Shown here: piece after piece, positions 27,327 through 45,000 of the stretch
Layout of the letters: every line of letters begins with the position of its first letter
How positions within the stretch are numbered: the stretch's first letter is position 1
From: Pseudomonadota bacterium
GTDB lineage: Bacteria > Pseudomonadota > Alphaproteobacteria > Acetobacterales > Acetobacteraceae
DNA length: 48,912 nt
NCBI GenBank assembly: GCA_021846225.1
Contig: JAJZCG010000006.1
Coordinates: 1 to 48,912, forward strand
Direction of reading: 5' to 3'
The notes under the pieces: generated by a model
What the model saw: the letters and a program-made list of their open reading frames with translations, nothing else
Database searches by the model: none
What the model was told of the DNA's origin: nothing
Made by a program: the position numbers and the translations under genes

Positions 27327-27698
27327 CTATTTCGTGGGGCAGAGCTGCTTCACGACTGAAAGCAGCTGGTTTGGTTCCGCCGGCTTGGTCAACCAGCCCG
27401 AGGCCCCGGCCGCACGCGCCTCGTCGCGCTTGCGCCCGCCCGATTCCGTGGTCAGCACGATGATCGGCGTGAACCGCGTCGATGCGATTTTCCGCGCCTC
27501 TTTGATAAAGCCGATCCCATCCAGCTCCGGCATGTTCAAATCCGTGAGAATCACCGAAGGCTTGATCCCTTCGCCCAGCTTGTTGATGCCCTCACGGCCG
27601 TTCATCCCGGTCTCCACCTCATAACCCGCGCCTTTCAGAATATGAGACAGACTCATGACCATGGTGGCCGAGTCATCGAGAACAAGAATTACAGGCAT
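27327..27698 (-). CDS. CheY-like single-domain response regulator
   Basis: The protein has 123 residues, a lone receiver domain. Acidic residues LVLDDSATM (DD at 8-9), the phosphoacceptor VILTDLNMPELDG (Asp53), the switch Thr in IIVLTTES and Lys in WLTKPA are all present. Lack of an output domain and its location in the middle of a flagellar locus fit CheY, which binds the motor switch. No CheA, CheW or receptor gene is in the window, so the input kinase is elsewhere. Transcribed leftward, divergent from fliE. Confidence 0.85.
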   Translation of the reverse strand: MPVILVLDDSATMVMSLSHILKGAGYEVETGMNGREGINKLGEGIKPSVILTDLNMPELDGIGFIKEARKIASTRFTPIIVLTTESGGRKRDEARAAGASGWLTKPAEPNQLLSVVKQLCPTK

Positions 27699-28076: not shown

Positions 28077-28382
28077 ATGTTAACCAACGCGCTTCTGCAA
28101 GTTGCCAGCCCGCTCGCTGCGGCGGCGGGCCCTGCAACCGCAGCTCCCGCCGCCTCGCCGGGTCATTTTTTGGATCTCCTCAACGGCGCATTGCAAAGCG
28201 TCAGCGCCACGCAGGGCGCCGCCGGCGTGGCGCAGGCCAGTTTCGCCGCGGGGGTGCCGGGCGCCACGCTGGGCAAGGCGCTGGTCGCGAACGACCGCGC
28301 CGAGGTCGCCTGGAACGCCACGGTGGCGGTGCGTAACGAGGTTGTCTCGGCGTATCAGTCCATCATGAACATGCAGTTCTGA
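28077..28382 (+). CDS. fliE: MS-ring/rod junction protein FliE
   Basis: The protein has 101 residues. FLDLLNGALQSVSATQGAA in the first half and VAWNATVAVRNEVVSAYQS then IMNMQF at the end are the FliE signature. It is an export-dependent adaptor between the MS ring and the rod. It opens the rightward flagellar operon. Its stop overlaps the fliF start as TGATG. Confidence 0.93.
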   Translation: MLTNALLQVASPLAAAAGPATAAPAASPGHFLDLLNGALQSVSATQGAAGVAQASFAAGVPGATLGKALVANDRAEVAWNATVAVRNEVVSAYQSIMNMQF

Positions 28383-29878
28383 TGCCGTCCGGGCGGGAGC
28401 TTTTCAACCAGATCCGCGCGCGCGCGGCACGTCTGCCCAAAATTTTCTGGGCGGCCGGCGGCGTCATCGCGGTCTCTTTCGCGGTGATGCTGTGGCTGGA
28501 AATGGGCGGCCCGCCTTATGCTGTGCTCGATGAAGGTCTCTCCCCCGCTGATGGCGGCAAGGTCATCGCCCAGCTGCAAAAACTTGGCATCCCTTATCAA
28601 CTGCAAGCCGCCGGCAACATCATCCTGGTGCCAGAACCCCAGCTGGCGCAGGCGCGGCTGCAATTGGGCGAGGCCCAGGTGCCCGGCTCGGATGTCTCCA
28701 CCGCCTGGGCGCAGCTGGAAAATGCGCCGATGACCGCTTCAGACCTGGCGCAATCCACCATGGCGGTGCAGGCGCTCGAGCTTACGCTGCAACAATCCAT
28801 CCAGAGCCTTGATGGCATCCGCGCCGCGCAGGTCTTTCTGGCCATCCCGCCCGAGACTCCCTTCCTCGCGGACCAGCCCAAGCCCACCGGCTCGGTCATC
28901 ATCCAGGCGGATGACGCCACCGCGCAGTCCCAGGGCGAGGCCATCGCCAACCTGGTCGCAGGCGCCGTCCCCGGCCTCGCGGCCAGCCAGGTCACGGTGG
29001 AAACCACCTCCGGCGTCACTGTTTATCCAGCTGGCGGCGCCATGACCGCCGGAAGCCAGTTCGCCACGGTCGCCCAGGTTGAAACCACCGCCGCCGCGCG
29101 CATTGCGGGGCTGCTCATCCCCCTGGTCGGCGCGGGGAATTTCCAGACGGACGTCGCCGCCAACCTGGACTTCACCCAAGAACATATCCGCCAGATCTCT
29201 TACGGCCCTTCGCATCTGGTCGCGCATGAGATCAGCACCCAGTCCAGCCAGACCGGCGCCTCCAGCGCCGCCATCGGCATCCCCGGCGCGCTCTCTAACG
29301 AGCCGCCATCCACCACCACCGCCACGCCGCCCGCCGCCGGTGCCGCCGCCACGCCCGCCGCGCCGGCGCAGCCGGAGCAAACCACCACCAAGCTAGACCA
29401 GACCTACCTCACCGACCGGAGCGAGAGTGACATCACCAACCCTGGGTGGACCGTCAAATCCATCGCCGTCTCGGTGGTGCTGAACAAGGCAGCGCTCGGC
29501 GCGGTCAGCATCAACCAGGTAAAGGCCGCCATCTCCGGTGCCTTCGCCTACCCCAATGTCAAGGTGAACGTGCTCTCCGCCCCGTTCCTTAAACCTGCCA
29601 CCACCCTGTCCTCGGGCGTGCTGGCCCAGCTTGCCGTGCCGCTCACGCACGGGTTGCTGGAAGTCCTGGCCGCCGCCGCCCTGCTGTTTGGCCTGGCGTT
29701 GCCGATCGGCCGGCGCCTGGGCACGCTTAACATCCAGTCCCTGCTGCCGCCGCCGCCGCAACGTCCGCTACCCGTGACGCTTCCGCCGCGGGACTTCTCA
29801 GACCTGCGCGAGCAGGCCGGCGGCAACATCCCCGGCGTCGCCCGTCTCCTGCAAAACTGGGCCGAAGAGAATGAATGA
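28382..29878 (+). CDS. fliF: MS-ring protein FliF
   Basis: The protein has 498 residues, near the short end for FliF. It has one membrane helix near 21-39 (IFWAAGGVIAVSFAVMLWL) and a second near 425-445. The ring-building region has LSPADGGKVIAQLQKLGIPYQ, SQVPGSDVS-like sequence and RAAQVFLAIPPETPF. The periplasmic variable part (about 300-335) is a Thr/Pro/Ala-rich insert. The C-terminal DLREQAGGNIPGVARLLQNW tail is the FliG-binding segment. It overlaps fliG by eight bases. Confidence 0.95.
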   Translation: MPSGRELFNQIRARAARLPKIFWAAGGVIAVSFAVMLWLEMGGPPYAVLDEGLSPADGGKVIAQLQKLGIPYQLQAAGNIILVPEPQLAQARLQLGEAQVPGSDVSTAWAQLENAPMTASDLAQSTMAVQALELTLQQSIQSLDGIRAAQVFLAIPPETPFLADQPKPTGSVIIQADDATAQSQGEAIANLVAGAVPGLAASQVTVETTSGVTVYPAGGAMTAGSQFATVAQVETTAAARIAGLLIPLVGAGNFQTDVAANLDFTQEHIRQISYGPSHLVAHEISTQSSQTGASSAAIGIPGALSNEPPSTTTATPPAAGAAATPAAPAQPEQTTTKLDQTYLTDRSESDITNPGWTVKSIAVSVVLNKAALGAVSINQVKAAISGAFAYPNVKVNVLSAPFLKPATTLSSGVLAQLAVPLTHGLLEVLAAAALLFGLALPIGRRLGTLNIQSLLPPPPQRPLPVTLPPRDFSDLREQAGGNIPGVARLLQNWAEENE

Positions 29879-30908
29879 CACCAACTCCCAACTCCCCGTT
29901 CCCCAGCTTCCCGCCCCGCAGCTGACCGGCGCCGAGCGCGCCGCCCTGGTCCTGCGTGAGCTGGGCGAGGATACCGCCGCGGCCGTGCTGCGTGAAATGG
30001 ACGAGGCCGCCGTCAACCGCATCTCCACCGCGATGACCACGCTGAAATCCACCCCGCCCGCCGTGCGGGAAGACATCATGCTGGCCTTCGCCAACGATCT
30101 TGGCATCACCGGCGTCGGCGGTGACGGCATGAAGTTTCTCAACCGCGTGCTGGTCTCAGCACTCGGTGAAACCCAGGCGCGTGAAATCCTTGACCGTCTC
30201 AGCCGTTCCGAACGCCGTTCCGCCTTTCATCTGCCCGCCAACGCCGACCCGCGGACCCTGGCCATGCAGATGACCCACGAACGCCCGCAGACCATTGCGC
30301 TTCTGCTCGCGCATATCCCGCATGAAATCGGCGCCAACCTGCTCACCTTTCTGCCCGAACCGCTGGCCGCTGAATCCCTCTACCGTTTCTCCACGCTGGA
30401 TGTCGTCTCCCCCAACGCGGTGGTTGAGCTGCGCGACATGCTGGAAGAGCTGATGAGCAACAGCGCCACCGGCGGGCGGCGTGTCGGCAACCTTGGCGGC
30501 GCCAAGCAAACCGCGGACATCCTGAACCATTTCCAAACCGGCATGTCCGACATGGTGCTCAGCGCCATTGACGCGCGGGACAATAAAACCGCCGAGAAAA
30601 TCCGCGAGAACCTGTTCACCTTCATCGATCTCGGCAAGCTCACGGACCGTTCGCTGCAGATCCTGCTGCGCGAGGTTCCTGGCGACAAGCTCGCGCCCGC
30701 CTTGCGCCTGGTCGACGAAACCCTGCGCGGCCGCTTCTTCCAAAATCTTTCCGCCCGTCAGGTCGAAGTCCTCAAGGAGGAGTTGCGCAGCGGTCCGCCG
30801 ATGCGCCGGGCCGATGCCCTGGCCGCCCAGTCCGAGGTGGTGGAAGTCGCCCTGCGTCTCGCCGGCGAAGGCCGCATCACCATCAGCGCGACGGAGGAAA
30901 TGATATGA
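29871..30908 (+). CDS. fliG: Flagellar motor switch protein FliG
   Basis: The protein has 345 residues. The N-terminal domain binds FliF (LTGAERAALVLRELGEDTAA), the middle domain follows with MTHERPQTIALLLAHI (137-140 ERPQ), and the C-terminal torque domain has LLREVPGDKLAPALRLVDE and RQVEVLKEELRSGPP. The middle-domain motif is EHPQ in most FliG proteins; here His is Arg, a change in the FliM-contact motif. The charged torque helix is intact. It overlaps fliK by four bases (ATGA). Confidence 0.96.
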   Translation: MNDTNSQLPVPQLPAPQLTGAERAALVLRELGEDTAAAVLREMDEAAVNRISTAMTTLKSTPPAVREDIMLAFANDLGITGVGGDGMKFLNRVLVSALGETQAREILDRLSRSERRSAFHLPANADPRTLAMQMTHERPQTIALLLAHIPHEIGANLLTFLPEPLAAESLYRFSTLDVVSPNAVVELRDMLEELMSNSATGGRRVGNLGGAKQTADILNHFQTGMSDMVLSAIDARDNKTAEKIRENLFTFIDLGKLTDRSLQILLREVPGDKLAPALRLVDETLRGRFFQNLSARQVEVLKEELRSGPPMRRADALAAQSEVVEVALRLAGEGRITISATEEMI

Positions 30909-32329
30909 GTGTTCCCCCCATTTCCCTCACGCCCGCTGCTCCCGCCACGCATCCGGCGGTTCATCCGTCCGCCGCGCCTTCAACCATTGCCGCCCCGGCG
31001 GCCTGGTCGCATGCGCTGGCCGCGGCGGATGCCGCCGTCCCTCCCGCCAAAGCCGCCTCCGTTCCGGCCAGCAAACATGCCGTTTCTCCGTCACCCGGCC
31101 CCAGCCCCTTCGCCGCCATGCTTCTCAGCGCCGCCGTGCCAGCGAGCCCTGCCGCGAAACCCGCCACGCCAACGGCCCCGGCTCCAGGCGGAGCCGCAAC
31201 CATAAGCAAAATTGCGACTCCCGTGGCTGCCTCCAGCCAGCGCGCGCCTGCCCTTGCGGACGCCGCGGCCCTCCCGGCGTCAGCTTCCGGCCAGGCATCC
31301 GCACCGGCATCTGCACCCGCACCCGCACCGGCATCCGCATCCGCAACGGCGGCGCAAACCTCCGCCACAAATACTTCGCAAGCCTCCTTTAATCCCATCT
31401 CGGGCAGCCCCGCGGCCAAACGCACCATCCCCCCGGCGACTCCATCGCCCACGCCCGCGGCCCCACTCACGCCAGCCCCGCCCACGCCAAGCTCGCCCGC
31501 CTCGAGCCTGCCCGTGCCGAACCCGCCCGTGCCGAACCCGCCTGCGTCGAGCCTGCCCGCGCCGAGCTCACCCACGCCAGCCACGCCCGCGATCGCCATT
31601 GCCGCCGCATCGCCTGAGGCCGATCCCCCGGCCAATGTTCCCAGCGTTACCAAACCCGCAGCGGCCAAACCCGCTGTGGCCAAACCCGCTATGGCTGGAA
31701 TGGCGGGAGCCAAAATCGCCGCCGCCCCGGACGCAACAGCCCAGCCCCCCCGCCTGACCGCGGCAAGCACGGCGCTGGGCACTGTGGAAAAGCCAGCCAC
31801 CGCATCAGCTGTTCCATCCATCCAGGCGCAATCCGCCCCCATCCATCCCGCCTTCGCGGCGCAACCCGCGTCCGCCCCCTTGGCGGCCATCTCCGCCCCT
31901 CCCGCCGCTGCACCCCTTTCCGCGGCTCCCACTCTCACCGCCGCCACCCCGGCCGCCCTGGCCGCCAGCATCACCGCCATGCATCACGCCGGCCAGGGCA
32001 GCGCAGTCCTGCGGCTGGACCCTCCCGGTCTCGGTAATCTTTCCGTCCATGTGGCGCTCGGCCAGGGTGGCCAGGTCAACGTCCTTTTCGTTCCCGCCCT
32101 GGCGCAAACCGCCCAGTTGCTTAACCTTGGCATGGACGGCCTGCGCCACGCCATGGCGGCCACCGGCCTCACCCTTGGCCAGGCCGATGTCAGCGGCGGC
32201 GGCGCGCAAAACCCCGGCCAGAACAGCGCCAACAACCCGCGCGCGGCCTTCACCGCCCCGGAACCGGCCGCCGCTCCGGCCGCCACCCCCGCCACCACGC
32301 CCGCCAGCGGGGTAAGTGCCTATGCTTGA
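30905..32329 (+). CDS. fliK: Flagellar hook-length control protein FliK
   Basis: The protein has 474 residues. The first 350 are extremely rich in Pro, Ala and Ser with short repeats (PAPAPASASA, VPNPPVPNPP, KPAVAKPAMA), the flexible ruler part. The C-terminal domain (about 355-450) has GSAVLRLDPPGLGNLSVHVA, VNVLFVPALAQTAQLL and LRHAMAATGLTLGQADV, the substrate-switch domain that talks to FlhB. Tandem DNA repeats sit inside the ruler part. The stop overlaps the fliM start region by eight bases. Confidence 0.9.
   Translation: MSVPPISLTPAAPATHPAVHPSAAPSTIAAPAAWSHALAAADAAVPPAKAASVPASKHAVSPSPGPSPFAAMLLSAAVPASPAAKPATPTAPAPGGAATISKIATPVAASSQRAPALADAAALPASASGQASAPASAPAPAPASASATAAQTSATNTSQASFNPISGSPAAKRTIPPATPSPTPAAPLTPAPPTPSSPASSLPVPNPPVPNPPASSLPAPSSPTPATPAIAIAAASPEADPPANVPSVTKPAAAKPAVAKPAMAGMAGAKIAAAPDATAQPPRLTAASTALGTVEKPATASAVPSIQAQSAPIHPAFAAQPASAPLAAISAPPAAAPLSAAPTLTAATPAALAASITAMHHAGQGSAVLRLDPPGLGNLSVHVALGQGGQVNVLFVPALAQTAQLLNLGMDGLRHAMAATGLTLGQADVSGGGAQNPGQNSANNPRAAFTAPEPAAAPAATPATTPASGVSAYA
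31295..31348 (+). repeat. Hexamer tandem repeat in fliK
   Basis: Nine consecutive units of the form GCAYCN (GCATCC, GCACCG, GCATCT, GCACCC and variants) encode alternating Ala-Pro/Ser. It is slippage-prone and frame-neutral in steps of two residues. Confidence 0.75.
31511..31540 (+). repeat. Perfect 15-base duplication in fliK
   Basis: CCCGTGCCGAACCCG occurs twice back to back (31511-31525 and 31526-31540), adding five residues per unit to the ruler region. Flanking sequence contains degenerate related units. Confidence 0.8.
31651..31695 (+). repeat. Three 15-base tandem units in fliK
   Basis: CAAACCCGCAGCGGC, CAAACCCGCTGTGGC and CAAACCCGCTATGGC follow each other at 31651, 31666 and 31681. 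They encode the KPAAA/KPAVA/KPAMA series. Confidence 0.8.
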
Positions 32330-33605
32330 GCAGCCGCAGGATGTTGAAACACTCGACCTTCTGGACTCCATGCGCGCGCCGCAATTGCGTTCGCTGCTCA
32401 TGGAGAACCTGTCGGACCGTTTCATGCGCCAAATTGCCTTCGCCTTGTTTCAGCGCATGCGTCACAGTGTGCAACTCCTCAGCTGCATCAACGGCGTCAC
32501 CAGCCATGAGGCGGCAATGTCCCAGCTGCCCGAGGTCATGCTCGCCGGCATCAGCGAGCTCGCCCCCCTGCGCGGGCGCATGCTCCTGGCGATTGACGGC
32601 GACCTCATCGGCGCCGTGGTTGATGCCATGTGCGGCGCCACCACGTCCCACCCGTTTGAGCGTTACGAGCTTTCCGCCCTGGAAACGCGCATCGGCAAGC
32701 AGATGATCAACCTTTCCCTGGCCACCATTCAGGAAACCCTGAGCCCGCTGGCCCAGCTTGATCTCGCCCCCATAGCTTACGAGACCGCCACCGGCATGCT
32801 CGCCATCGCCGACGGTCAGGATTGGATGATCGCCGTCACCGGCATTTTTGAGACCGCTCTTGGCACCGGCACCATCAAGCTCATCGCGCCTTATGCGGGG
32901 TTTGAACCTTTGGAAGCCAAGGTCGCCTCGCAATCGGGCCTGCTTGGCCAGCGCGGCGCGGATACGGGCTGGATCAACGGCATCGAGATGCTCACCGAGG
33001 CCACGCCGATTGACATCACCTTCGAGCTTGCCCGCGTCAACCTGCCCCTCGCCGTGTTCGAGGCGCTCGCCCCCGGCACCGTCCTGCCCTTTACCCTGTC
33101 GCCGGAGGCGATTGCCGTCTCCGGCGGCATTGACCTGTTCTACGCCGATTACGGCCAGAGCGGCGGCTATGTCTGCTGCCGCGTGAAAGCGGACGGCGCC
33201 ACTGAAGGAGACCCATACATGGCTGATCAGATAGACCGTTCTGCCGCCCCTGATGACAAAGCCGCCGGCAAATCACCCCTTGAATATGAACGTGCCGAGC
33301 TTGAGCGCATCCAGCCGCAACCGCGCGGCGCCCCGATACTCACCGGCAAAAAAATGCTGGACCGTGTGCAGGTCTCCCTCACCGTGGAGCTTGGCCGCAC
33401 CCAGATCACCGTGAAAGACCTGCGCCAGCTTCGCCACGGCCAGGTCATCACCCTCGACCAGACGGTCGGCGAACCCCTCACCATCTTCGCCAATGGCCAG
33501 AAGCTCGCTTATGGCGAGGTCGTCGCCGTCGCGAACGACCGTTACGGCGTGCGCGTCACCGCCCTGGTCGAGGACATGGACGCAACGGCCGAGACCGGCG
33601 CATGA
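32322..33605 (+). CDS. fliM: FliM-FliN fusion, motor switch / C-ring protein
   Basis: One frame of 427 residues from ATG 32322 (GTG 32316 is also in frame). Residues 1-299 are FliM: a short N-terminus with a degenerate CheY-docking segment (VETLDLLD), a middle domain (LRGRMLLAIDGDLIGAVVDA, ELSALETRIGKQMINLSL) and a SpoA domain (about 213-290: DITFELARVNLPLAVFEAL, VSGGIDLFYADYG). Residues 300-427 are FliN: a charged linker, then MLDRVQVSLTVELGRTQITV, LRQLRHGQVITLDQ and LTIFANGQKLAYGEVVAV. There is no stop between them. Fused or dual-product switch proteins are known in type III secretion (SctQ) but FliM and FliN are normally separate genes. Overlaps fliK. Confidence 0.85.
   Translation: MLEQPQDVETLDLLDSMRAPQLRSLLMENLSDRFMRQIAFALFQRMRHSVQLLSCINGVTSHEAAMSQLPEVMLAGISELAPLRGRMLLAIDGDLIGAVVDAMCGATTSHPFERYELSALETRIGKQMINLSLATIQETLSPLAQLDLAPIAYETATGMLAIADGQDWMIAVTGIFETALGTGTIKLIAPYAGFEPLEAKVASQSGLLGQRGADTGWINGIEMLTEATPIDITFELARVNLPLAVFEALAPGTVLPFTLSPEAIAVSGGIDLFYADYGQSGGYVCCRVKADGATEGDPYMADQIDRSAAPDDKAAGKSPLEYERAELERIQPQPRGAPILTGKKMLDRVQVSLTVELGRTQITVKDLRQLRHGQVITLDQTVGEPLTIFANGQKLAYGEVVAVANDRYGVRVTALVEDMDATAETGA
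33205..33210 (+). promoter_or_regulatory. Internal ribosome-binding site for FliN
   Basis: AAGGAG with eight-base spacing to ATG 33219. It is as good as or better than the sites before most genes of this operon, which argues that it is a used start rather than chance. Confidence 0.65.
33219..33605 (+). CDS. fliN: FliN from internal translation start within the fliM frame
   Basis: AAGGAG (33205-33210) lies eight bases before ATG 33219, an ideal ribosome-binding site within the fliM-fliN frame. Initiation here gives a 128-residue protein with normal FliN size and sequence (MADQIDRSAAPDDKAAGKSP, SpoA domain to the end). So the locus may yield both a long FliM-FliN and a free FliN, as SctQ genes do. 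A TGA at 33203-33205 in another frame shows that a one-base indel would restore separate genes, so a frameshift or sequencing error is the alternative. The next gene overlaps its stop by four bases. Confidence 0.65.
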   Translation: MADQIDRSAAPDDKAAGKSPLEYERAELERIQPQPRGAPILTGKKMLDRVQVSLTVELGRTQITVKDLRQLRHGQVITLDQTVGEPLTIFANGQKLAYGEVVAVANDRYGVRVTALVEDMDATAETGA

Positions 33606-33865
33606 GCGCAAACGGCGTCAGCATCGGCGCCTGGGTGGCCTTCGCGGAACTCGCGGGGCCGGTGCTCCTGCTCATGCTCATCATCGGCCTGGCCGCGGGC
33701 ATCATGCAAACCGCCACGCAGATTCGTGAAGCCTCCATCCCCTTCGTGCTCAAACTCGTGGGCATGGCGGCGCTCACCACCACGGCGGGGCCGCTGATGC
33801 TGCGCGGCGTCGAGCACTACGCCATCAACCTCTTCCATGCGATTCCTGGGTTGCTTCATGGCTGA
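33602..33865 (+). CDS. fliQ: Flagellar export gate protein FliQ, second copy
   Basis: The protein has 87 residues with two membrane helices (about 19-36 and 49-68). The loop IMQTATQIREASIPFVLKLV matches the FliQ signature Q-x-A-T-Q-I-x-E-x-x-(I/L)-x-F-x-x-K and is closer to canonical FliQ than the copy at 15814. It sits just before flhA, the position of fliQ in several alphaproteobacteria. The two copies differ in almost every position outside the motif, so this is an old duplication or a separate acquisition. Start overlaps fliN by four bases, stop overlaps flhA by eight. Confidence 0.85.
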   Translation: MSANGVSIGAWVAFAELAGPVLLLMLIIGLAAGIMQTATQIREASIPFVLKLVGMAALTTTAGPLMLRGVEHYAINLFHAIPGLLHG

Positions 33866-35954
33866 GGCCGCCATTCTCCCGCGCCCCGGTTCGCTCAGCG
33901 CCACCCAGCTCTCCGGCCCCATCGTCATATTGCTGGTGCTGGCGATGCTCGTGGTGCCGCTGCCGCCGGCCGCCATTTCGTTTCTCTTCGCGCTCAACAT
34001 CTCCGCCGGCCTCGTCATCCTCGGCGCCAGCCTCTACATCCCCTCGCCGTCGGAATTCTCCTCCTTCCCTTCGGTGCTGCTCGCCACCACGCTCATGCGC
34101 CTGGCCCTCAACGTCGCCACCGCGCGCGCTATTTTGCTCAACGGCTACACCGGCCCCGGCGCCGCCGGCCATGTCATCGAATCCTTCGGCCAGTTCGCCG
34201 TCGGCGGCAATTTCGTCGTTGGCGGCATCATCTTCGTCATTCTCATCATCATCAACTTCATGGTCGTCACCAAGGGCGCCTCGCGTGTCGCGGAAGTCTC
34301 CGCCCGCTTCATGCTGGACTCATTGCCCGGCCGCCAGATGGCGATTGACGCCGAGATCAACGCCGGCATCCTCTCCCCCCAGGCCGCCGAGCGCCGCCGC
34401 GACACTCTGCGCCGCGAAGCCGATTTTTTTGGCGCGATGGACGGCGCCTCCAAATTCGTCCGCGGCGATGTCGTCGCCGCCATGATCATCCTGGTCGTCA
34501 ACATGCTGGGCGGCCTCATCATCGGCACCCTGCAGGACGGCCTGCCCCTGGCCGACGCCGCCCGCACCTACACCTTGCTCACGGTGGGTGACGGCCTGGC
34601 GGCCCAAATCCCCTCGCTCACCATCTCGGTCGCCGCCGGCCTCGTCGTCACCCGCGTCGCCACCGGCGAGGACATCGGCCAGCAGATCAAATCCCAGCTC
34701 AGCAAATACCCGCAGGCCCTGGCCATCGCCGCCGCCATCATGGGCGCCATCGGCCTCGTGCCGCAAATGGCGCATATCCCCTTCCTCATGTTCGCCGCCG
34801 CCCTGGGCACCGCCGCCTGGCGCTTGTCGCAGGCCGCCAAGGCGCAGGACGAAGCCGCCGCCGCCGGCACCGCCCCCGCCGCCGCGCAAAACAACGAGGT
34901 CAAACCCGATTCTTTGATCGATGTCACCGGCGTCGATCCCCTGGGCATGAACATCGGCTTCGCCCTGGCGCCGCTGGTCGGGCCGGGGGAGGGGCGTCTG
35001 CTCAACCGCCTCACCGCCGTGCGCCAACGCTACGGCCGCGCCATGGGCTTCCTCGTCCCCGCCGTCCACATCCGTGATTCCTCCGATCTCCCGGCACATG
35101 GCTACCGCTTCACCCTGCGCGGCGCCTCCATCGGCGGCGGGGAGGCTTGGCCCGGCCAGTGGCTCGCCATCGAAGGCCCGATGGTCACCGAAAAGCTTAG
35201 CATCGGCCGCCCCGTGAAGGACCCGGCCTTCGGCCAGGCCGCGGTCTGGATTCCCCAAGGCGGCATCCCCGCCGCCGAGGATCTTGGCTACACGGTGGTT
35301 GACGCACCGAGCGCCATGGCCACCCATTTTGCTGAAATCCTAAAACGCCACGGCGCCGAGCTGCTGGGCCGCCCGCAGGTTGAGGGGTTGATGACCCGCC
35401 TTGCCGAAACCACCCCCCGCCTAGCGGAAGACCTTCGCACCAACCTCTCCATCGGCCTCATTCGCCAGGTGCTCCAGGGCCTGCTGGCCGAGGAAGTGCC
35501 GATCCGCGATTTCGAGCGCATCGGTGAAGCCCTGGTCGAAGCCGCTGACGGTGGCACCAAGGACGTTGATAAACTCCTCGCCGCCGTGCGCCTGCGCCTC
35601 GGCCGTTTCATCGTCACCCAGGTCGCGGGGGCGGATCCCGTCCTGCGTGTTGCCGTGCTGCAACAGCGGCTGGAGGAGCTGGTCGCCAAATCCTTGCGCA
35701 CCGGCCGCGAGAGCGGCATCGGCCCGGAGGTGGAGGCCGAAACCGCGACCTATCTGCGCCAGGCAGCCGAAAGCGCGGCGCGCGCCATGCGCCAGCGCGG
35801 CCTCAAGCCTGTTCTGGTGGTCCAGGGGCTCACCCGCCGCGCCGTTGCGCGCGCCACCGGCGGGCTCATCCCCGTTCTCGCGCTCGAGGAAATCCCCGAG
35901 ACCCTGCCGCTGCAAGTGGTGCACACCGCCGAGCCTGGCCCCGCCAATGGATAA
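33858..35954 (+). CDS. flhA: Flagellar export platform protein FlhA
   Basis: The protein has 698 residues from ATG 33858. The N-terminal half has eight membrane segments; FSSFPSVLLATTLMRLALNV and the cytosolic loop with READFFGAMDGASKFVRGD (about 195-215) are FHIPEP-family hallmarks. The C-terminal cytosolic domain carries MNIGFALAPLVGPGEGRLLN, a VKDPAFGQAAVWI segment, RPQVEGLMTRLAET and the end part. It moves and docks export substrates and chaperones. It is full length. Overlaps the second fliQ at its start and fliA at its end. Confidence 0.97.
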   Translation: MAEAAILPRPGSLSATQLSGPIVILLVLAMLVVPLPPAAISFLFALNISAGLVILGASLYIPSPSEFSSFPSVLLATTLMRLALNVATARAILLNGYTGPGAAGHVIESFGQFAVGGNFVVGGIIFVILIIINFMVVTKGASRVAEVSARFMLDSLPGRQMAIDAEINAGILSPQAAERRRDTLRREADFFGAMDGASKFVRGDVVAAMIILVVNMLGGLIIGTLQDGLPLADAARTYTLLTVGDGLAAQIPSLTISVAAGLVVTRVATGEDIGQQIKSQLSKYPQALAIAAAIMGAIGLVPQMAHIPFLMFAAALGTAAWRLSQAAKAQDEAAAAGTAPAAAQNNEVKPDSLIDVTGVDPLGMNIGFALAPLVGPGEGRLLNRLTAVRQRYGRAMGFLVPAVHIRDSSDLPAHGYRFTLRGASIGGGEAWPGQWLAIEGPMVTEKLSIGRPVKDPAFGQAAVWIPQGGIPAAEDLGYTVVDAPSAMATHFAEILKRHGAELLGRPQVEGLMTRLAETTPRLAEDLRTNLSIGLIRQVLQGLLAEEVPIRDFERIGEALVEAADGGTKDVDKLLAAVRLRLGRFIVTQVAGADPVLRVAVLQQRLEELVAKSLRTGRESGIGPEVEAETATYLRQAAESAARAMRQRGLKPVLVVQGLTRRAVARATGGLIPVLALEEIPETLPLQVVHTAEPGPANG

Positions 35955-36519
35955 CCCGCAACCCGCCTTCAGCCTGGACCAGCCGCATCTCTCCGCGCTT
36001 TACGGGGGCTGGATCAAGCGCACCGCGCTGCTGCTCAAATCGCGCATGCCCTGGGCCGAGCTGGACGAGCTGCTGCAATGGGGCGCCATCGGCATGCTGG
36101 AGGCGATGAGCCGGTTTGATCGCACCCATGGCGTCGCCTTCGAGGTTTTCGCCGCCAGGCGCATCCGTGGCGCCATGATCGACGGTCTGCGCCGTGACGG
36201 CGCACAGCGGCGCGGCGAATTTATGCTCGACGCGGACAAGGTCGACACCGCCGCCTTCATGGACGGCACCAGCCCGGACGATCCGCTGGCCCTGCTGCTG
36301 CGCGCCGATGCCCGCCACCTGCTGGTCGAAGCCCTCAAAACCCTGCCCGCGCTCGAATACCAAGTGCTGGCCCTGCATTTCTACGACGAGATGAACAACC
36401 GGGAAATCGCCGCCATTCTCGACATGAGCGAAGGCTACGCCTCGCGCATCCGCAAACGCGCGCTGGAATCCCTTGCCATCTACATGAACACCGCCTTGAA
36501 GGGAGAGACCGTATCGTGA
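35947..36519 (+). CDS. fliA: Flagellar sigma factor FliA (sigma28), compact form
   Basis: The protein has 190 residues from ATG 35947, overlapping the flhA stop by eight bases. Region 2 (about 12-85) has ELLQWGAIGMLEAMSRFDRT and VFAARRIRGAMIDGLRRDG; region 4 (about 122-178) has TLPALEYQVLALHFYDEMNN and MSEGYASRIRKRALESL. The stretch between them is only about 35 residues, where a usual 230-240-residue FliA has a full region 3 that reads the extended -10. It should direct late flagellar genes such as flagellin. No FlgM anti-sigma gene is in the window. Confidence 0.88.
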   Translation: MDNPQPAFSLDQPHLSALYGGWIKRTALLLKSRMPWAELDELLQWGAIGMLEAMSRFDRTHGVAFEVFAARRIRGAMIDGLRRDGAQRRGEFMLDADKVDTAAFMDGTSPDDPLALLLRADARHLLVEALKTLPALEYQVLALHFYDEMNNREIAAILDMSEGYASRIRKRALESLAIYMNTALKGETVS

Positions 36520-37319
36520 CCAGTCTGATTGGTTTGTTGTGCGGCTTTCTGGTGATCATCGGCGGCGCCCTGTCTGACAGCGACCCGCTGTCCTCCCTGG
36601 TCAGCCTCACCGCCGTCATCATCGTCATCGGCGGCACCTTCGCGGCGCTGCTCACGCAATTTGGCCTTGGCCGCGTGCTCACCGGCATGAAGGGTATCAT
36701 TTGGCTGGTCAAACCGCCCAAGACCGATCTGCGTAAATTCATCGAGCAGGTCGCCGAATGGTCCTCCCTGGCGCGCAGCCAGGGCACGCTGGCGCTGGAG
36801 AACGTGCTGGGCGACGTGAAAGACCCCTTCCAGAAACAGGGTCTGCAAATGATCGTTGACAACACCTCGCCCGATGACATGCCGACGATCCTTGGCATCA
36901 TGGCCGAGAACACCGGCCGCATCCAGGAAACCCCCGCCGAGGTCTGGGAGGCCGCCGGCGGCTACTCGCCCACCATCGGCGTCATGGGCGCCGTGCTCGG
37001 CCTCATCCACGTCATGATGCGCCTGAACCACCCCGAGGAGCTGGGCGGCGGCATCGCCACCGCCTTTGTCGCCACCATTTACGGCGTCGGCTTCGCCAAC
37101 CTCATCGCCCTGCCGCTGGGCAACCGGCTCAAGCAGCTGGCGCAGGAGCTGGAGCGCGAGCGCCATGTCGTCATCCAGGGCTTCATGCTGCTGGCCGCGG
37201 GCAAGCCCGGCATTCTCATCCGCCAGAACCTGCAAAGCTTCCTCACCGACGAAGGTAAAGCCAAACCCAAGCCCGCGGCGGATGAACCCGCCGCCGCCGC
37301 CGCTGAACAGGCCGCCTGA
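36516..37319 (+). CDS. motA: Flagellar stator protein MotA
   Basis: The protein has 267 residues from GTG 36516, overlapping fliA by four bases with GGAGAG upstream. Four membrane segments; the cytosolic loop has SSLARSQGTLALENVLGDVKD with the Arg/Glu pair that faces FliG; the later span GGYSPTIGVMGAVLGLI holds the conserved Pro. The C-terminal tail is Lys/Pro/Ala-rich (KAKPKPAADEPAAAAA). It forms the ion channel stator with MotB. This is a complete gene. Confidence 0.94.
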   Translation: MTSLIGLLCGFLVIIGGALSDSDPLSSLVSLTAVIIVIGGTFAALLTQFGLGRVLTGMKGIIWLVKPPKTDLRKFIEQVAEWSSLARSQGTLALENVLGDVKDPFQKQGLQMIVDNTSPDDMPTILGIMAENTGRIQETPAEVWEAAGGYSPTIGVMGAVLGLIHVMMRLNHPEELGGGIATAFVATIYGVGFANLIALPLGNRLKQLAQELERERHVVIQGFMLLAAGKPGILIRQNLQSFLTDEGKAKPKPAADEPAAAAAEQAA

Positions 37320-37321
37320 CC

Positions 37322-38134
37322 ATGTCTCACGCCGCCCCCCCCGGACCGGGCAAAAAGCCCGAGAAGCCGCCCAATCATGAGCGCTGGGTCATCAGCTACG
37401 CTGATCTGCTGACCCTGCTGCTGGCCACCTTCGTGGTGCTTTATGCCTCCTCCTCGCGCAACAAGTTCAAGGAGCAGGAGGTCGCGGCCAGCTTCATCAC
37501 CGCCTTTCACGGCACGCCGCCCTCGGTGGTCCAGAATTCTGGGGCCAGCCGCGGTATTTTGCAGCACCACACCTCGCCCATCCCCAAGCCCCCCGGCTCG
37601 CCCCAGGTCAACGCCAAAATCCCCAAGGAGATGGCGCATCAGCTCGCGGCCGACATCCTCTCCCTGAAGCAGTTGCAGCTCAAGCTCACCGCGCTGCTGC
37701 AACCTTTGGTCGACAAGCACGAGGTCTCGATCCAGAGCCAGCCGCTCACCCTCACCATCGAGCTGGACGCCTCGGTCCTCTTCGCCTCGGGCGATGCGAC
37801 GCTGAAACCGGCGGCGGTCACCCTGCTCAACCAGGTTGGCGTGGGGCTCAAGAACATGCCGGCCCCCTTCACCATCGTCGTACAGGGCTACACGGACGAT
37901 AAACCAATCTCCACCCAGCAGTTCCCCTCCAACTGGTCGCTCTCGGCTGAACGCGCGGTCAGCGTCGTCAGCCTGTTCGTGAGCAACGGGGTGCCCGGCG
38001 GCCAGCTCTCCGCTCAGGGCTTTGGCCAATTTTCTCCCATTGCCCCCAACACTGACGAGATCGGCCGCGCCCGCAACCGCCGCGTGATGGTGGTGGTGCA
38101 CGCCCCCGATCCCACCGCGAAACCCGCGAAGTAG
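37322..38134 (+). CDS. motB: Flagellar stator protein MotB
   Basis: The protein has 270 residues, two bases after motA. The single span VISYADLLTLLLATFVVLYA carries the ion-binding Asp28. The C-terminal OmpA-like domain binds peptidoglycan: ASVLFASGDATLKPAAVTLL, VVQGYTDDKPIS, NWSLSAERAVSVVSLFV, GQFSPIAPNTDEIGRARNRR. The plug/linker (about 45-110) is Pro- and Lys-rich. The Asp with the Ala before it fits a proton-type stator, though ion choice cannot be settled by eye. Confidence 0.95.
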   Translation: MSHAAPPGPGKKPEKPPNHERWVISYADLLTLLLATFVVLYASSSRNKFKEQEVAASFITAFHGTPPSVVQNSGASRGILQHHTSPIPKPPGSPQVNAKIPKEMAHQLAADILSLKQLQLKLTALLQPLVDKHEVSIQSQPLTLTIELDASVLFASGDATLKPAAVTLLNQVGVGLKNMPAPFTIVVQGYTDDKPISTQQFPSNWSLSAERAVSVVSLFVSNGVPGGQLSAQGFGQFSPIAPNTDEIGRARNRRVMVVVHAPDPTAKPAK

Positions 38135-38143
38135 GAGCCGCCC

Positions 38144-38413
38144 ATGGCCAAATCCCCCGCCGCCAAGCGCGGCAAACCAACCCCCAAGCTGCTCCGGCCC
38201 GGTATGCTGATGCTGGCCGCCGTGTTCATCTGGTCGGCGCGGCACCTGCCTCCGGTTTTCACCCCCGCCAGTCTTTCCGGCTGGGTGCTCGGCGCTGCCA
38301 CGGTTGCCCTGCTCACCCGCGCCGCCCTGGCTTTGGCCGCGCCGGTTCTGGGCGTGTTCGGCGCGATTTTCACCCAGGCGTTGCAGTCCATGCGGCACGG
38401 CGCCGAATCATGA
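38144..38413 (+). CDS. Small two-helix membrane protein in the flagellar operon, function unknown
   Basis: The protein has 89 residues. A basic start (MAKSPAAKRGKPTPKLLRPG) precedes one hydrophobic segment (MLMLAAVFIWSARHLPPVF, about 21-39) and a longer hydrophobic stretch (about 45-80: GWVLGAATVALLTRAALALA), ending QALQSMRHGAES. GGAG lies upstream of ATG 38144, and the stop overlaps the fliH start by four bases, so it is co-translated with the export-ATPase genes. I do not recognise the family. Position between stator and export apparatus suggests a flagellar accessory protein. Confidence 0.65.
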   Translation: MAKSPAAKRGKPTPKLLRPGMLMLAAVFIWSARHLPPVFTPASLSGWVLGAATVALLTRAALALAAPVLGVFGAIFTQALQSMRHGAES

Positions 38414-39066
38414 GCTTCGTCACCGCATCGCGTGGCCGCGCCAAAACCTTCGTTCAGGTTGTCTTGGCGCAGGACACCGCCAACCTCGCGGAAGCCGAGG
38501 CCGAAATCGCGCGGCGCGTCCGCCAGGAGGTCGCCCGCCTGCGTGAAAAGGCCGAGGCCGACGCCCGCGCCGAGGCTGAAGCCCAGATTCGCGCCGCCAT
38601 GGAGCCGCAATCGGCCGCCCTTGCCACCGCCATCGCCGCGCTGGGGGCCGCCTGGGCGCAACTCGCCGCCCCGCTGGCGCAAAAGGAGCGCGACCTGGCA
38701 GATCTCGTCACCGAGCTTTCCTTTTTGCTCGCCCGCCATATCACCGGCGTCGAGTCACAAACCAACCCCGCCAGCCTGCAATCGCTGGTCACACGCCTCA
38801 TCGCGGAGGCCGCCGCCGAGCGTGGCCCGCGCCAGAGCCTGCTGCTGCGCCTCAACCCGGCGGACCACGCGCATCTCCTCCCACTCATCCCCGCCGAGAC
38901 CGCCAGTCTGCTGGCCGACGAAACCGTCGCCCAGGGCGGCGCGCTGGTTGAGATCATCGCCCCGGACGGCGATCCTCTGGACAAAATCGAGTGGGACGCG
39001 AGCCTGGCCAGCCGGCTGGAAACCATCCGCGCCGCCCTGGCGCTCCCCCCTGGTGCGCCCCCATGA
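38410..39066 (+). CDS. fliH: Flagellar export ATPase regulator FliH
   Basis: The protein has 218 residues. A charged coil (about 24-62: AEAEAEIARRVRQEVARLRE, AEADARAEAEAQI) is followed by the C-terminal domain with DLADLVTELSFLLARHITG, LIAEAAAERGPRQSLLLRLN and ADETVAQGGALVEI. This matches FliH, which binds FliI and anchors it to the C-ring. Sequence is divergent, so the call rests on layout, order before fliI and the coil/domain pattern. Stop overlaps fliI as ATGA. Confidence 0.85.
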   Translation: MSFVTASRGRAKTFVQVVLAQDTANLAEAEAEIARRVRQEVARLREKAEADARAEAEAQIRAAMEPQSAALATAIAALGAAWAQLAAPLAQKERDLADLVTELSFLLARHITGVESQTNPASLQSLVTRLIAEAAAERGPRQSLLLRLNPADHAHLLPLIPAETASLLADETVAQGGALVEIIAPDGDPLDKIEWDASLASRLETIRAALALPPGAPP

Positions 39067-40424
39067 ACCCGGATTCCCGCTTGAGCATGGACACCATCCG
39101 CGGCCTGGCGCGCGAACGCCTGCGCGAGGCGCTTTCCCGCGATCCAGTGCGCCGTTTCGGGCGCATCACCCGTTCCAACGGCGAGGTGCTGCACGCCAGC
39201 GGCATCCGCGCGCCGATCGGCTCGCGCTGCCTCATCGCGGCCGAGGGCAGCGCCGATTTTCTCTCCGCCGAGGTTGTCGGCTTCGAGCAGGGCGCCCTGC
39301 TGGTCATGCCCGAACAAGGCACCCGCGGCGTCATGCGCGGGGCGCGCATCCATGTTGAATCACGCGCCCCCGCCCCGCTGATGGGCAGCGCCCTGCTTGG
39401 CCGCATCATTGATGCCCGCGGCCAGCCGCTGGATGGCCAGCCCCCGCCCGATGTCACCCAGCCCTGGCCCCTGCTCGGCGTACCGCTGAACCCGATGGCG
39501 CGCACCCGCATCTTCCAGATGTTCGATGCCGGGGTCGGCGCCATCAACGCCCTCGCCACCATGGGCCGCGGCATGCGCATTGGCCTGTTCGCCGGCAGCG
39601 GCGTTGGCAAAACCACCCTGCTTGGCATGATGGCCCGCCACGCCAGCGCCGATGTCGTCGTCGTCGGCATGATCGGCGAGCGCGGCCGTGAAATCCGCGA
39701 ATTCATCGAGGATCATCTGGGCAGCGCCCGTCCGCGCAGCGTCGTCGTCGCCTCCCCGGCCGATGACACCGCCCTGGGCCGGCTGCACGGCGCCTACCGC
39801 GCGGCGGCCATCGCTGAATACTTCCGCGACCAGGGCAAGCACGTCCTGCTGGTGGTGGACTCTCTCACCCGCCTCGCCATGGCCCTGCGCGAGATCGGCC
39901 TGGCCGTCGGCGAACCCCCCGCCACCAAAGGCTATCCGCCCTCCGTGTTCGGCGCGCTCGCGGCCTATGTGGAGCGCGCCGGCAACGGCACCTCGGCGCA
40001 AGGCTCCATCACCGCCATTTATACAGTGCTGGTCGAGGGCGACGATCATGTAGGCGACCCGGTGGCCGACACCGCCCGTTCCGTGCTGGATGGCCACATC
40101 GTGCTCTCGCGTGCCATGGCTGAGGCCGCGATTTACCCCCCGATTGACATTTCAGCCTCGCTCTCGCGCCCGATGCCCAGCCTCGTCACCCCCGCGCACC
40201 AGAAGCTCGCGGCGCGGTTCCGCTCGTTATGGGCCCGGCGCGCCGAAAAGCAGGACATCATAGACCTCGGCGCCTACACCCCCGGGCGAGACCCCTTGCT
40301 CGACGAAGCCCTGCGCCGCGCCCCGGCGATGGAGGCCGTGCTGCGCCAGGACATGCACGACGGCATCAGCCTCGCCGCCAGCCTCACCGCTCTGCAAGCA
40401 GCCCTGGCGGAGCCCCAGCCATGA
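39063..40424 (+). CDS. fliI: Flagellum-specific ATPase FliI
   Basis: The protein has 453 residues from ATG 39063. Walker A AGSGVGKTT (about 176-184), GMIGERGREIREFIEDHLG and Walker B HVLLVVDSLTRLAMALREI (about 260-278), then PPSVFGALAAYVERAG and the C-terminal part are typical. It unfolds and delivers export substrates in an F1-like hexamer. It is complete, and follows fliH by overlap. Confidence 0.97.
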   Translation: MNPDSRLSMDTIRGLARERLREALSRDPVRRFGRITRSNGEVLHASGIRAPIGSRCLIAAEGSADFLSAEVVGFEQGALLVMPEQGTRGVMRGARIHVESRAPAPLMGSALLGRIIDARGQPLDGQPPPDVTQPWPLLGVPLNPMARTRIFQMFDAGVGAINALATMGRGMRIGLFAGSGVGKTTLLGMMARHASADVVVVGMIGERGREIREFIEDHLGSARPRSVVVASPADDTALGRLHGAYRAAAIAEYFRDQGKHVLLVVDSLTRLAMALREIGLAVGEPPATKGYPPSVFGALAAYVERAGNGTSAQGSITAIYTVLVEGDDHVGDPVADTARSVLDGHIVLSRAMAEAAIYPPIDISASLSRPMPSLVTPAHQKLAARFRSLWARRAEKQDIIDLGAYTPGRDPLLDEALRRAPAMEAVLRQDMHDGISLAASLTALQAALAEPQP

Positions 40425-42088: not shown

Positions 42089-45000
42089 GTGTCAGATGCT
42101 ATTTTCATCGTCGGTTACTACCGCAGCGGCACCTCGGCGCTCTCAGGCGCGTTGCAGCGTCTGGGCGTGAAATTTTTCAACGAGGCCGACCCCAACGAGC
42201 ACAACCCGCTCGGCTTCTATGAAATCCCCGAGCTGATCGAATTTGATGTCGACCTCTTCAACCGTCTCGGCGTGGAATGGACCGACGTGCGCGGCCTGCC
42301 CGAAGGCTGGGAGGAGCGCGCCGATCTCGCTTCCTTTCTCTCCCGTCTCGATGAAACCCTGCGCCGCCGCTTTTTGCCGGCGGATAAAGTCTGGGGCCTG
42401 AAGCACCCGCATCTGTGCCGCACCCTGCCGCTCTATGAGCGTGCCGTGCGCCAGGCCGGGCACAACCCGCATGTCATCCACATCTTCCGCGACCCCTGGA
42501 CCGCCGCGGCCAGCCAGGGCCATAAAAACGGGCTGAGCCGCGCGCATGCGCTGCTGCTCTGGCTCAGCTACGTCACCGATGGCGAGCGCCATGCCCGCCA
42601 CCTGCCGCGCAGCTGGCTCACCTATCAGGACCTGCTCGCCAAACCCGCCGCCGAGTTGCGCCGCATCGAACAGGACATCGGCCTTCCCCTTGCCGGCCTC
42701 GTGCCCAACGGCCTGCGTGAGGCGGCGGGCCATCTCACCGGCCAGCTCAACCGCAGCAACCCGCTATCGCATGATGGTCTTTTCCACCCGCTGGACATGC
42801 TGGCCACCCGCGTCTGGGATGCGGTCCAGTCGCGGGACACCTCTGCGGCTCTATGGGACTCCTTCGCCGCCGAGACCCGCGGCATCGTCGAATTCCTCAC
42901 CGAAATCGGCGCCAGCCGCGGCCGTGTGGTCCCGGCCTTCGGCGCGGCTTTCAACCCTGTTCTCGCGGCACCGGCGGATGCCGCCGCCGCCGCCGGCCTG
43001 CGCCCGCCCGAGCGCCTGGATGAAGGCGGCCGGGCCCGGCTGGAAGCTTTGCGCGCTGCCGCCCCGCCGCTGCCGCGCCTTGCCATCCTCATCGTTGCGC
43101 CGCAGGGCCGTGCCTCCGGGGTGAATGACACTGTGCACGCCCTGCGCCAGCAATGGCATGCACCCGAACATATCACCATCCTCGCGGCCGAGCCGGTGGA
43201 AATCCCCGGCATCCCCGCGCACATCATCCCGCCCGAGCCCGCCGCTGCCTCGCGCCTGCTCTGCGATTCTCTGAATGAGGCCGCGGCCGCGGCGGATTAT
43301 GTCGCCATCATCAACGCGGGCGACACGCTCTCCCCTGATGCCTGCCTGCGCTTTGCCCTCACCGCCACCGCCAGCCAGGCGGACATGATCTATTGCGACG
43401 AGATCGTCCCGCGTGAGGGCGGCGCCTGGGTCCGCCAGAAGCCCGCCTGGGACATCACCCGCCTGCGCCAGGCGGCTTATGTGGGAGACTGGGTCTGGTA
43501 CGCCGCCAAAACCTTGCTGCGCCTCGGCGGCTTTGATGCCGCGCGCGCAGGCGCCGAGGAGTATGACTTCCAACTCCGCCTCGCCGAGGCCGGGGCCAAG
43601 GTGGAGCGCCTGCCCGAGGCGCTGTTCACCCGCTGCCCGCAAAGCCGGCGCGACAGCATTCCCGCCACCGAATTCTGCGCCAACGCCGCCCAGGCCATCA
43701 CCGCCCATCTCGCCCGCGCGGGCCTGCCCGCTCAGGTGCAAAACCGCCAGCACCTCGGCCTGTTCCACCATGTCCGCCTGGCGCCTGATCCCGGCACCAC
43801 CTTCATCATGCTGTGCGATGGCGGCGAGGTGGCGCAGCTTGACCAATGGCTCACCGGCCTGCTCAGCGCCAATGAGCTTTCCGGCCCGATCATCCTTGCC
43901 GGTGCGAACCTCAACCCGCAGATGACCACCTACCTGACCGCCGTCGCCCAGCAGACCGAGGCCCTGGAGGGCAAGGTTCTGGCCGTGCCGCCCGTGCCCG
44001 CCCTGCAACCGGCGCAGGCGCTGGCGCAGGCGGTGGCCATGGTGGCCACCCCGCTCACCGCCATCATTGACATCCGCGCCCAGCCCCAGGTGCCGCATTG
44101 GGCCGAGGGTCTGCGCGCCCGCCTGGCCGACCCGGGCGCCGTGCTTGCCGGGGCGCGCACGCTGGTGCCCTTTGGCCCCGCCGCCCGGCAGTTCACGGTC
44201 CAGGGGCCCATCGTCCTCGGCGCCGATACCCGCCTTGGCGTGGGCCATGCCCCCGAAGACCCCGGCCCCGGCGGCTGGCTCACGGTGGATCAGGAGGCCA
44301 GCGCCCTCGCGCCACCGGCGCTGCTGGGCCGCACCGCCGCCCTCAAGGCGCTGCATTTCCCCAACCTCACCGGCGATGCCCTCTGGATCGTGCTTTGCGC
44401 CCAGCTCCGCGCCGAGGGCGCGCGCATCGTCTGGACACCGGACATCTCCTTCATCGCCCCGGCCGAGGCGGTCCAGCCAGATGCCGGAAATACCTGCCGC
44501 GATGGCGCACCGGCGGGCCTCGCCTTGCCCTGGGCAGACCCCTACCACCACCCCGCCCTCTCCCTGCACGGCAATCTGCTCAGCGCCGAGCAACGGCTGG
44601 GTCTGGTGCGCTCCTGCCCGGCGGATCCCTCCTCTCTGCTGATAACCGGCTCCGCCCTGGAGGGTGAAGCCCTGCTCAATGCCGCCCGCGCCTTGCGCAG
44701 CACCGGCGCGCTGGAGGCTGATTGGGCGCAGGAGATGCCCGGCGCGGCCGATCTCGGCCGCCGGGGCGCCGCCGTCTGGGCGCGCATCAACCCGCAACAG
44801 TGCCCCCAACCCCACAGCCCGGCTTATAGCGCCGTGTTCACCGCCCCTCCGGCAGCTGATGCCAAGCCGGTCATCGCCGGTGCCGCGCGGCTTTTCGCCA
44901 CCTCGCCCGGCCTGGTGCAGCGCGTGCGCAAACTGGCCCACCCGCGCCAGCCGGTCACTCTCTGGCGGCCCACGCTCTCCGCGCCCATCTGGTCCACCTT

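Follow-up and report, generated by a model that had tools for sequence, protein, structure and literature searches.

A fused fliM-fliN gene with a probable internal start for free FliN in the flagellar operon of Acidocella

Within a stretch of 48,912 nucleotides from a member of the Acetobacteraceae (assembly GCA_021846225.1, contig JAJZCG010000006.1, positions 1 to 48,912; this whole stretch is called the window here), the flagellar genes fliM and fliN are joined in a single open reading frame (ORF) that carries, at the point where its FliN part begins, a Shine-Dalgarno (SD) sequence followed by a start codon. From the conservation of this arrangement among relatives, we consider it highly probable that the gene has two products and that the flagellar C-ring is built from a FliM-FliN fusion together with free FliN. 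It is also probable, though we hold this somewhat less firmly, that the C-ring design of the injectisomes, with two products from one gene, has arisen independently in a flagellar motor. In the mechanism that we propose, translation from position 32322 would yield a fusion of 427 residues whose two SpoA domains could pair within one chain, and initiation a second time, at the SD-ATG inside the gene (33205-33221), would yield a free FliN of 128 residues. The fusion would supply FliM and one FliN, the free FliN would complete a FliM1:FliN3 unit, and about two free FliN per fusion would be expected. In one clade, the fusion lies outside the operon and has lost its internal start, with a plain fliN staying in the operon.

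The fused reading frame and its predicted internal start site

The fused gene is a single stop-free ORF on the forward strand of the window, from the ATG at 32322 to the TGA that ends at 33605. Residues 1-299 of its 427 amino acids constitute the FliM part and residues 300-427 the FliN part and, as the original prediction had stated, no stop separates the two. The middle domain of FliM (PF02154) passes its cut-off (63.5 bits vs 27), as do residues 300-427 with the FliMN_C model (82.1 bits vs 23.8). The protein reaches none of the NCBIfam cut-offs for FliM, FliN and SctQ: the score is 131.5 bits for the FliM equivalog TIGR01397 (cut-off 219.6), which is the best of the three, 82.7 for TIGR02480 (FliN; just below the cut-off of 84.05) and 87.9 for TIGR02551 (SctQ; cut-off 100.8). 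By these profiles, the FliM part is a divergent FliM. FliM has an EIDxLL-type CheY-binding motif at its N-terminus; compared by eye with this motif, the beginning of the fused gene (32322-32385) lacks a clear counterpart, residues 9-15 offering only a degenerate stretch that resembles ETLDLLD. The best match of the fusion among solved structures is 4yxb, whose profile aligns continuously across both SpoA domains. A genome-wide search found no FliMN_C match in the window's own genome besides the fused gene.

The internal site consists of AAGGAG at 33205-33210, eight further nucleotides and an ATG at 33219-33221 (residue 300), located exactly at the start of FliN as originally predicted. Its energy of pairing with the anti-SD sequence is -9.2, which ranks first among the 26 internal ATG, GTG and TTG codons of the ORF. 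We compared this site in 28 junctions of the same type (type A, the fusion with the internal SD-ATG), drawn from 26 genomes, two of which have a second copy; a 29th junction comes from G025, whose type-A gene is cut by contig ends. The ATG is present in all 29, in 26/26 by alignment and, for G025 and both second copies, by inspection. In 27 of the 29, an in-frame glycine codon GGA lies at most five codons upstream of the ATG, the exceptions being G245, which has GAGGAGGAG, and the second copy of G004 (G004b); elsewhere in 26 type-A ORFs, GGA accounts for 67 of 838 glycine codons (8%). When the 23 non-redundant junctions among the 28 are anchored on the ATG, positions -14 to -8 (AAGGAGA) carry 0.8-1.7 bits; of the 29 other upstream positions between -36 and -1, 27 carry 0.03-0.52 bits and two carry 0.79 and 0.88. 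The internal SD ranks sixth or better in 25 of the 28 copies, and the site has on average less structure than 92% of the 50-nucleotide windows of its own ORF (range 57-100%, 26 ORFs). Closely related genomes are not independent, and the conservation is given without a p-value; nonetheless, it is this conservation in relatives that places the SD-ATG beyond chance. At the level of sequence, the gene has a conserved site from which a C-terminal product with a SpoA domain could be started.

Two types of fusion and their distribution

A search for FliMN_C in 38 genomes of the genus Acidocella revealed type-A fusions in 27, a second type of fusion (type B) in four, separate genes in one, nothing beyond an ordinary frame of FliM type (334 amino acids) in one (G020) and no match in five. 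The comparison with close relatives envisaged in the original prediction thus shows a fusion, and no conserved stop, in most of the genus. The type-A proteins are 46-98% identical to the fusion of the window, the 28 type-A ORFs examined all have an intact frame with no internal stop, and the carriers include isolates of A. aquatica, A. aromatica, A. aminolytica and A. facilis, whose records overlap with the set of genomes. As to gene order, fliQ and flhA lie directly downstream in 26/26 type-A loci, and upstream there is fliK in 21, fliG alone in four and a contig end in one (L002). Both second copies likewise have fliK on one side and fliQ on the other. G004 (L079, L118) and G245 (L080, L121) each have two such flagellar operons with a fused fliM-fliN, and three of these four copies have weak internal SDs. 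G028 (L088, L089) has, in place of the fused type, an ordinary and distant flagellar system in which FliM and FliN are separate (its matches are about 24-49% identical, with one short match at 61%).

A wide distribution of the fusion was considered and rejected. In samples of 200 and 397 genomes of the family, near-full-length in-frame matches occurred, among the matches listed, only in Acidocella and in genus g78, and samples of the class (289) and the phylum (398) added no further fusion among the matches listed; these samples overlap, and they might not reveal a fusion of very divergent sequence. Eleven long open frames scanned around FliN matches in other genera (308-465 amino acids; a set apart from the stretches L176 and L177) each hold a single FliMN_C domain and lack a FliM domain, and a twelfth FliN frame outside the genus is short (108 amino acids). 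A plasmid source was likewise rejected: tblastn matches were all below 60% identity (57/57 records), and the 15 plasmid matches listed are 26-31% identical and fall into two pieces, with fliM and fliN separate where annotated.

Type B is known from six fusions, four in Acidocella (G006, G010, G018, G031) and two in another genus of the same family (G113, G237). None of their six linkers has the conserved SD-ATG. In all six genomes, the fused ORF has its place outside the operon, next to a gene for a response-regulator receiver protein, of which the type-A homologue lies close to fliE, at 27327-27698 of the window (reverse strand). In five of the six genomes, a free fliN fills precisely the position between fliK and fliQ (stop-to-stop frames of 119-183 amino acids). 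The sixth, G031 (L087, G031:C13), has no flhA match in its assembly either; its operon is either lost or missing from the assembly, and its type-B fusion is a relic or reflects an assembly gap. Since loss of the SD-ATG goes with a separate fliN in five of six type-B genomes and type A keeps the SD-ATG, free FliN appears to have one of two sources, the internal start or a separate gene. These natural controls support a working internal start.

The FliN sequences themselves offer a further hint. A segment near the start of FliN, resembling ERVELE, is common, with variation, to type-A FliN and to the free FliN of type B, and two outgroup FliN proteins carry it as VEVEPL; it is unrecognisable in five of the six fused FliN domains of type B, and GERASM in G113 may be a remnant of it. 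In a chosen set of FliN rows (10 of the 28 type-A, five free and two outgroup), 17 columns are invariant, and the six type-B fused domains, which have very long branches, keep 70 of the 102 corresponding cells. This hints that constraint on the fused FliN was relaxed or changed once a separate gene provided free FliN; trees of the FliN part are unsettled, with long branches and a bootstrap that did not converge, and are used as a hint only.

Outgroups, origin and rival explanations

The nearest separate-gene relatives found fall into two pairs. Two genomes from another family of the class (G825, G853) have the same kind of operon with fliM and fliN as separate genes in different frames: the fliM frame has 296 amino acids, and the candidate ATG of fliN lies 17 bases before the fliM stop. 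In two genomes of the same family as the window (G935, G905; genus g83; completeness 77% and 87%), fliM and fliN are adjacent and in the same frame with one stop between them; an ATG directly follows this stop and a second lies 13 codons further on. These are distant relatives, their FliM being about 24% and their FliN 46% identical to those of the window. Other outgroup loci (G044, G382 and others) have a different gene order near fliN and added little. If the stop were lost in a state such as that of G935 and G905, the outcome would be a fusion that retains the start of fliN, and the fusion probably arose in this manner. In a tree of FliM rooted on G825 and G853, type B forms one clade (100/93) that groups with both type-A copies of G004 (96/91), and the four states need three changes, the minimum number. 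The likely order is type A and then type B, and living relatives likely preserve the successive steps: separate but overlapping genes, genes in the same frame with one stop, a fusion with an internal start, and a fusion that has lost this start and is accompanied by a separate fliN.

A first alternative, raised with the original prediction itself, is an artefact of sequencing or assembly, in which an indel of a single base would mask an ordinary stop separating fliM from fliN; a TGA does lie in another frame at 33203-33205, where it overlaps the SD (acTGAAGGAG). We regard this as next to impossible, for the fused frame is kept in relatives of the genus, in separate assemblies and in cultured strains, and the junctions keep the frame over lengths of 16-27 residues, counted from the YGQ in the SpoA domain of FliM as far as the internal ATG (26 ORFs). 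Moreover, the out-of-frame TGA is found at the same place in eight of 26 junctions and is absent there from the other 18; it looks like a by-product of a T preceding GAAGGAG. An error at this point was rejected on the grounds of conservation.

It is improbable, if less so, that the fusion is real and its internal start idle. The fusion alone would then build the C-ring, the SD-like codons being kept for a Glu-Gly-Asp linker, and the frequency of E-G-D/E residues in the linker, the conservation of bases after the ATG and the weakness of some SDs would all fit. Yet AAGGAGA is conserved at every codon position, including the third-base A of a rare glycine codon; the ATG is invariant; and the type-B fusions, five of which have a separate fliN at their side, have dropped the segment, just as five of them have no recognisable version of the RVELE-like residues found in most type-A, free and outgroup FliN. 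Even slighter is the chance that the full-length fusion is a neutral by-product and that the working FliM and FliN arise by processing: the linker is without a stop or a frameshift in 34 fused ORFs of both types, and type B kept its fusion despite having a free fliN, so that the fusion itself looks selected.

A number of observations do weigh against a fusion accompanied by free FliN from an internal start, or against parts of that scheme. A single SD site is weak evidence, since energies of -9.1 are also attained by about 5% of the other internal codons of the 34 ORFs (1283 codons). Several bases at +4 to +14 past the ATG are rather conserved, as are the first residues of FliN, so that part of the signal is at the protein level. 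Three of the 28 type-A copies have weak SDs: G004a (-5.8, rank 20 of 52), G004b (-5.8, rank 14 of 43) and G245b (-5.3, rank 8 of 25). Each type-B fusion retains some ATG in the stretch searched, with SD energies of -0.3 to -4.0 in five of the fusions and of -6.6 in G113 (rank 4 of 38), where the loss of the SD-ATG is therefore not clean. In the FliM tree, a very long branch (8.6) leads to the outgroup, with the consequence that type A before type B is only moderately supported. An AlphaFold prediction for the fusion, made from 21 sequences, reached a predicted local distance difference test (pLDDT) score of only 36 and was not used, so that the proposed pairing of the SpoA domains relies on the profile match to 4yxb. 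Together with the type-B controls, the conservation of the SD-ATG still argues for the scheme originally predicted, a C-ring made of fused FliM-FliN plus free FliN.

The flagellar locus and its comparison with known systems

The order of genes around the fusion is fliE-fliF-fliG-fliK-[fliM-fliN]-fliQ-flhA-(sigma factor)-motA-motB-...-fliH-fliI (Table 1), and the best matches of other nearby genes are flgB, flgD, flgE, flgI, flgK, fliR, flhB, flgA and flagellins, the scores of fliR and flhB being below their NCBIfam cut-offs. The presence of fliG, motA/B, flgD, flgE, flgI, flgK and flagellin makes this a flagellar locus and not an injectisome. Between a gene with a flagellin domain (flgL-like) and flgA, at 42089-45535, the window also encodes a protein of 1148 amino acids with an N-terminal sulfotransferase domain, which possibly serves to modify flagellin; G237, G004 and G014 have homologues in the same surroundings.

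Table 1. Features of the fused gene and of the surrounding flagellar locus (positions in the window)
Feature	Position	Strand	Basis or remark
fliE	28077..28382	+	–
fliF (MS ring)	28382..29878	+	–
fliG (three FliG domains)	29871..30908	+	profile match
fliK, stop overlapping start of fused gene	30905..32329	+	PF02120
fliM-fliN fused ORF	32322..33605	+	427 aa (amino acids); orthologues in relatives
FliM domain PF02154, residues 21-200	32382..32921	+	Pfam, E 3.3e-17
First SpoA (FliMN_C) domain, FliM part, residues 227-289	33000..33188	+	Pfam, E 3.6e-7, FliM half alone
Internal Shine-Dalgarno AAGGAGA	33205..33211	+	sequence; conservation, energy
Internal ATG of free FliN (Met300)	33219..33221	+	ATG in 29/29 type-A junctions
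Predicted free FliN, 128 aa	33219..33605	+	PF01052, E 2.8e-23
Second SpoA (FliMN_C) domain, FliN part, residues 345-416	33354..33569	+	Pfam
fliQ, start overlapping stop of fused gene (ATGA)	33602..33865	+	PF01313
flhA	33837..35954	+	PF00771, E 3.8e-222
motA	36516..37319	+	PF01618
motB	37322..38134	+	PF13677
fliH	38410..39066	+	PF02108
fliI (ATPase)	38991..40424	+	–

FliY, in which a CheC-like domain is joined to a FliN domain, resembles the fusion in having its FliN domain at the C-terminal end of a longer switch protein; models of FliY match the FliN end only (e.g. residues 310-420), and the N-terminal part of the fusion differs in being FliM. Compared with ordinary adjacent fliM and fliN genes, operon position and domains are alike, whereas the fusion has no stop between its two parts.

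The closest parallel in design is found in the injectisomes. It is well established that sctQ genes have an internal start that yields a C-terminal fragment (PMC8553256, PMC4832279, PMC4443714), and McDowell and colleagues made the case for SctQ as in effect a FliM-FliN fusion and SctQ-C as free FliN (PMC4832279). With SctQ and SctQ-C (Spa33, YscQ, SpaO, HrcQ), the common features are one gene, a FliM-like part joined to a FliN-like SpoA domain, and an internal start. Unlike SctQ, however, the present fusion belongs to a flagellar locus with FliG, MotA/B, hook and flagellin, it scores higher on the FliM model than on the SctQ model (131.5 vs 87.9 bits), and in its outgroups the same type of operon contains fliM and fliN as separate genes. 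An identity as injectisome SctQ was rejected on gene content and scores. The SctQ-like solution in a flagellar locus suggested by the original prediction is borne out to this extent: the comparison supports a resemblance to SctQ in working, not in membership, and the Acidocella fusion is probably a flagellar, convergent version of the SctQ design.

For Salmonella, PMC11087270 gives the repeating unit as one FliM and three FliN SpoA domains, and a FliM-FliN fusion mutant is mentioned (Kihara 1996, as related in PMC4832279). This mutant and the FliM(SPOA)::FliN construct of 4yxb have the same order of parts as the Acidocella fusion; the former is a laboratory product and the latter engineered, whereas the Acidocella fusion is natural, conserved in the genus and equipped with its own internal FliN start. 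In searches of open PMC texts, we found no report of a natural flagellar FliM-FliN fusion with an internal start.

If the Acidocella gene does work in the manner proposed, this natural flagellum would provide an independent evolutionary test of both the model of McDowell and colleagues and the FliM1:FliN3 unit. In such a motor, FliM would be tied 1:1 to one FliN, so that FliN exchange and the remodelling of the C-ring would become testable. The type-A and type-B relatives would constitute a natural experiment on the need for free FliN.

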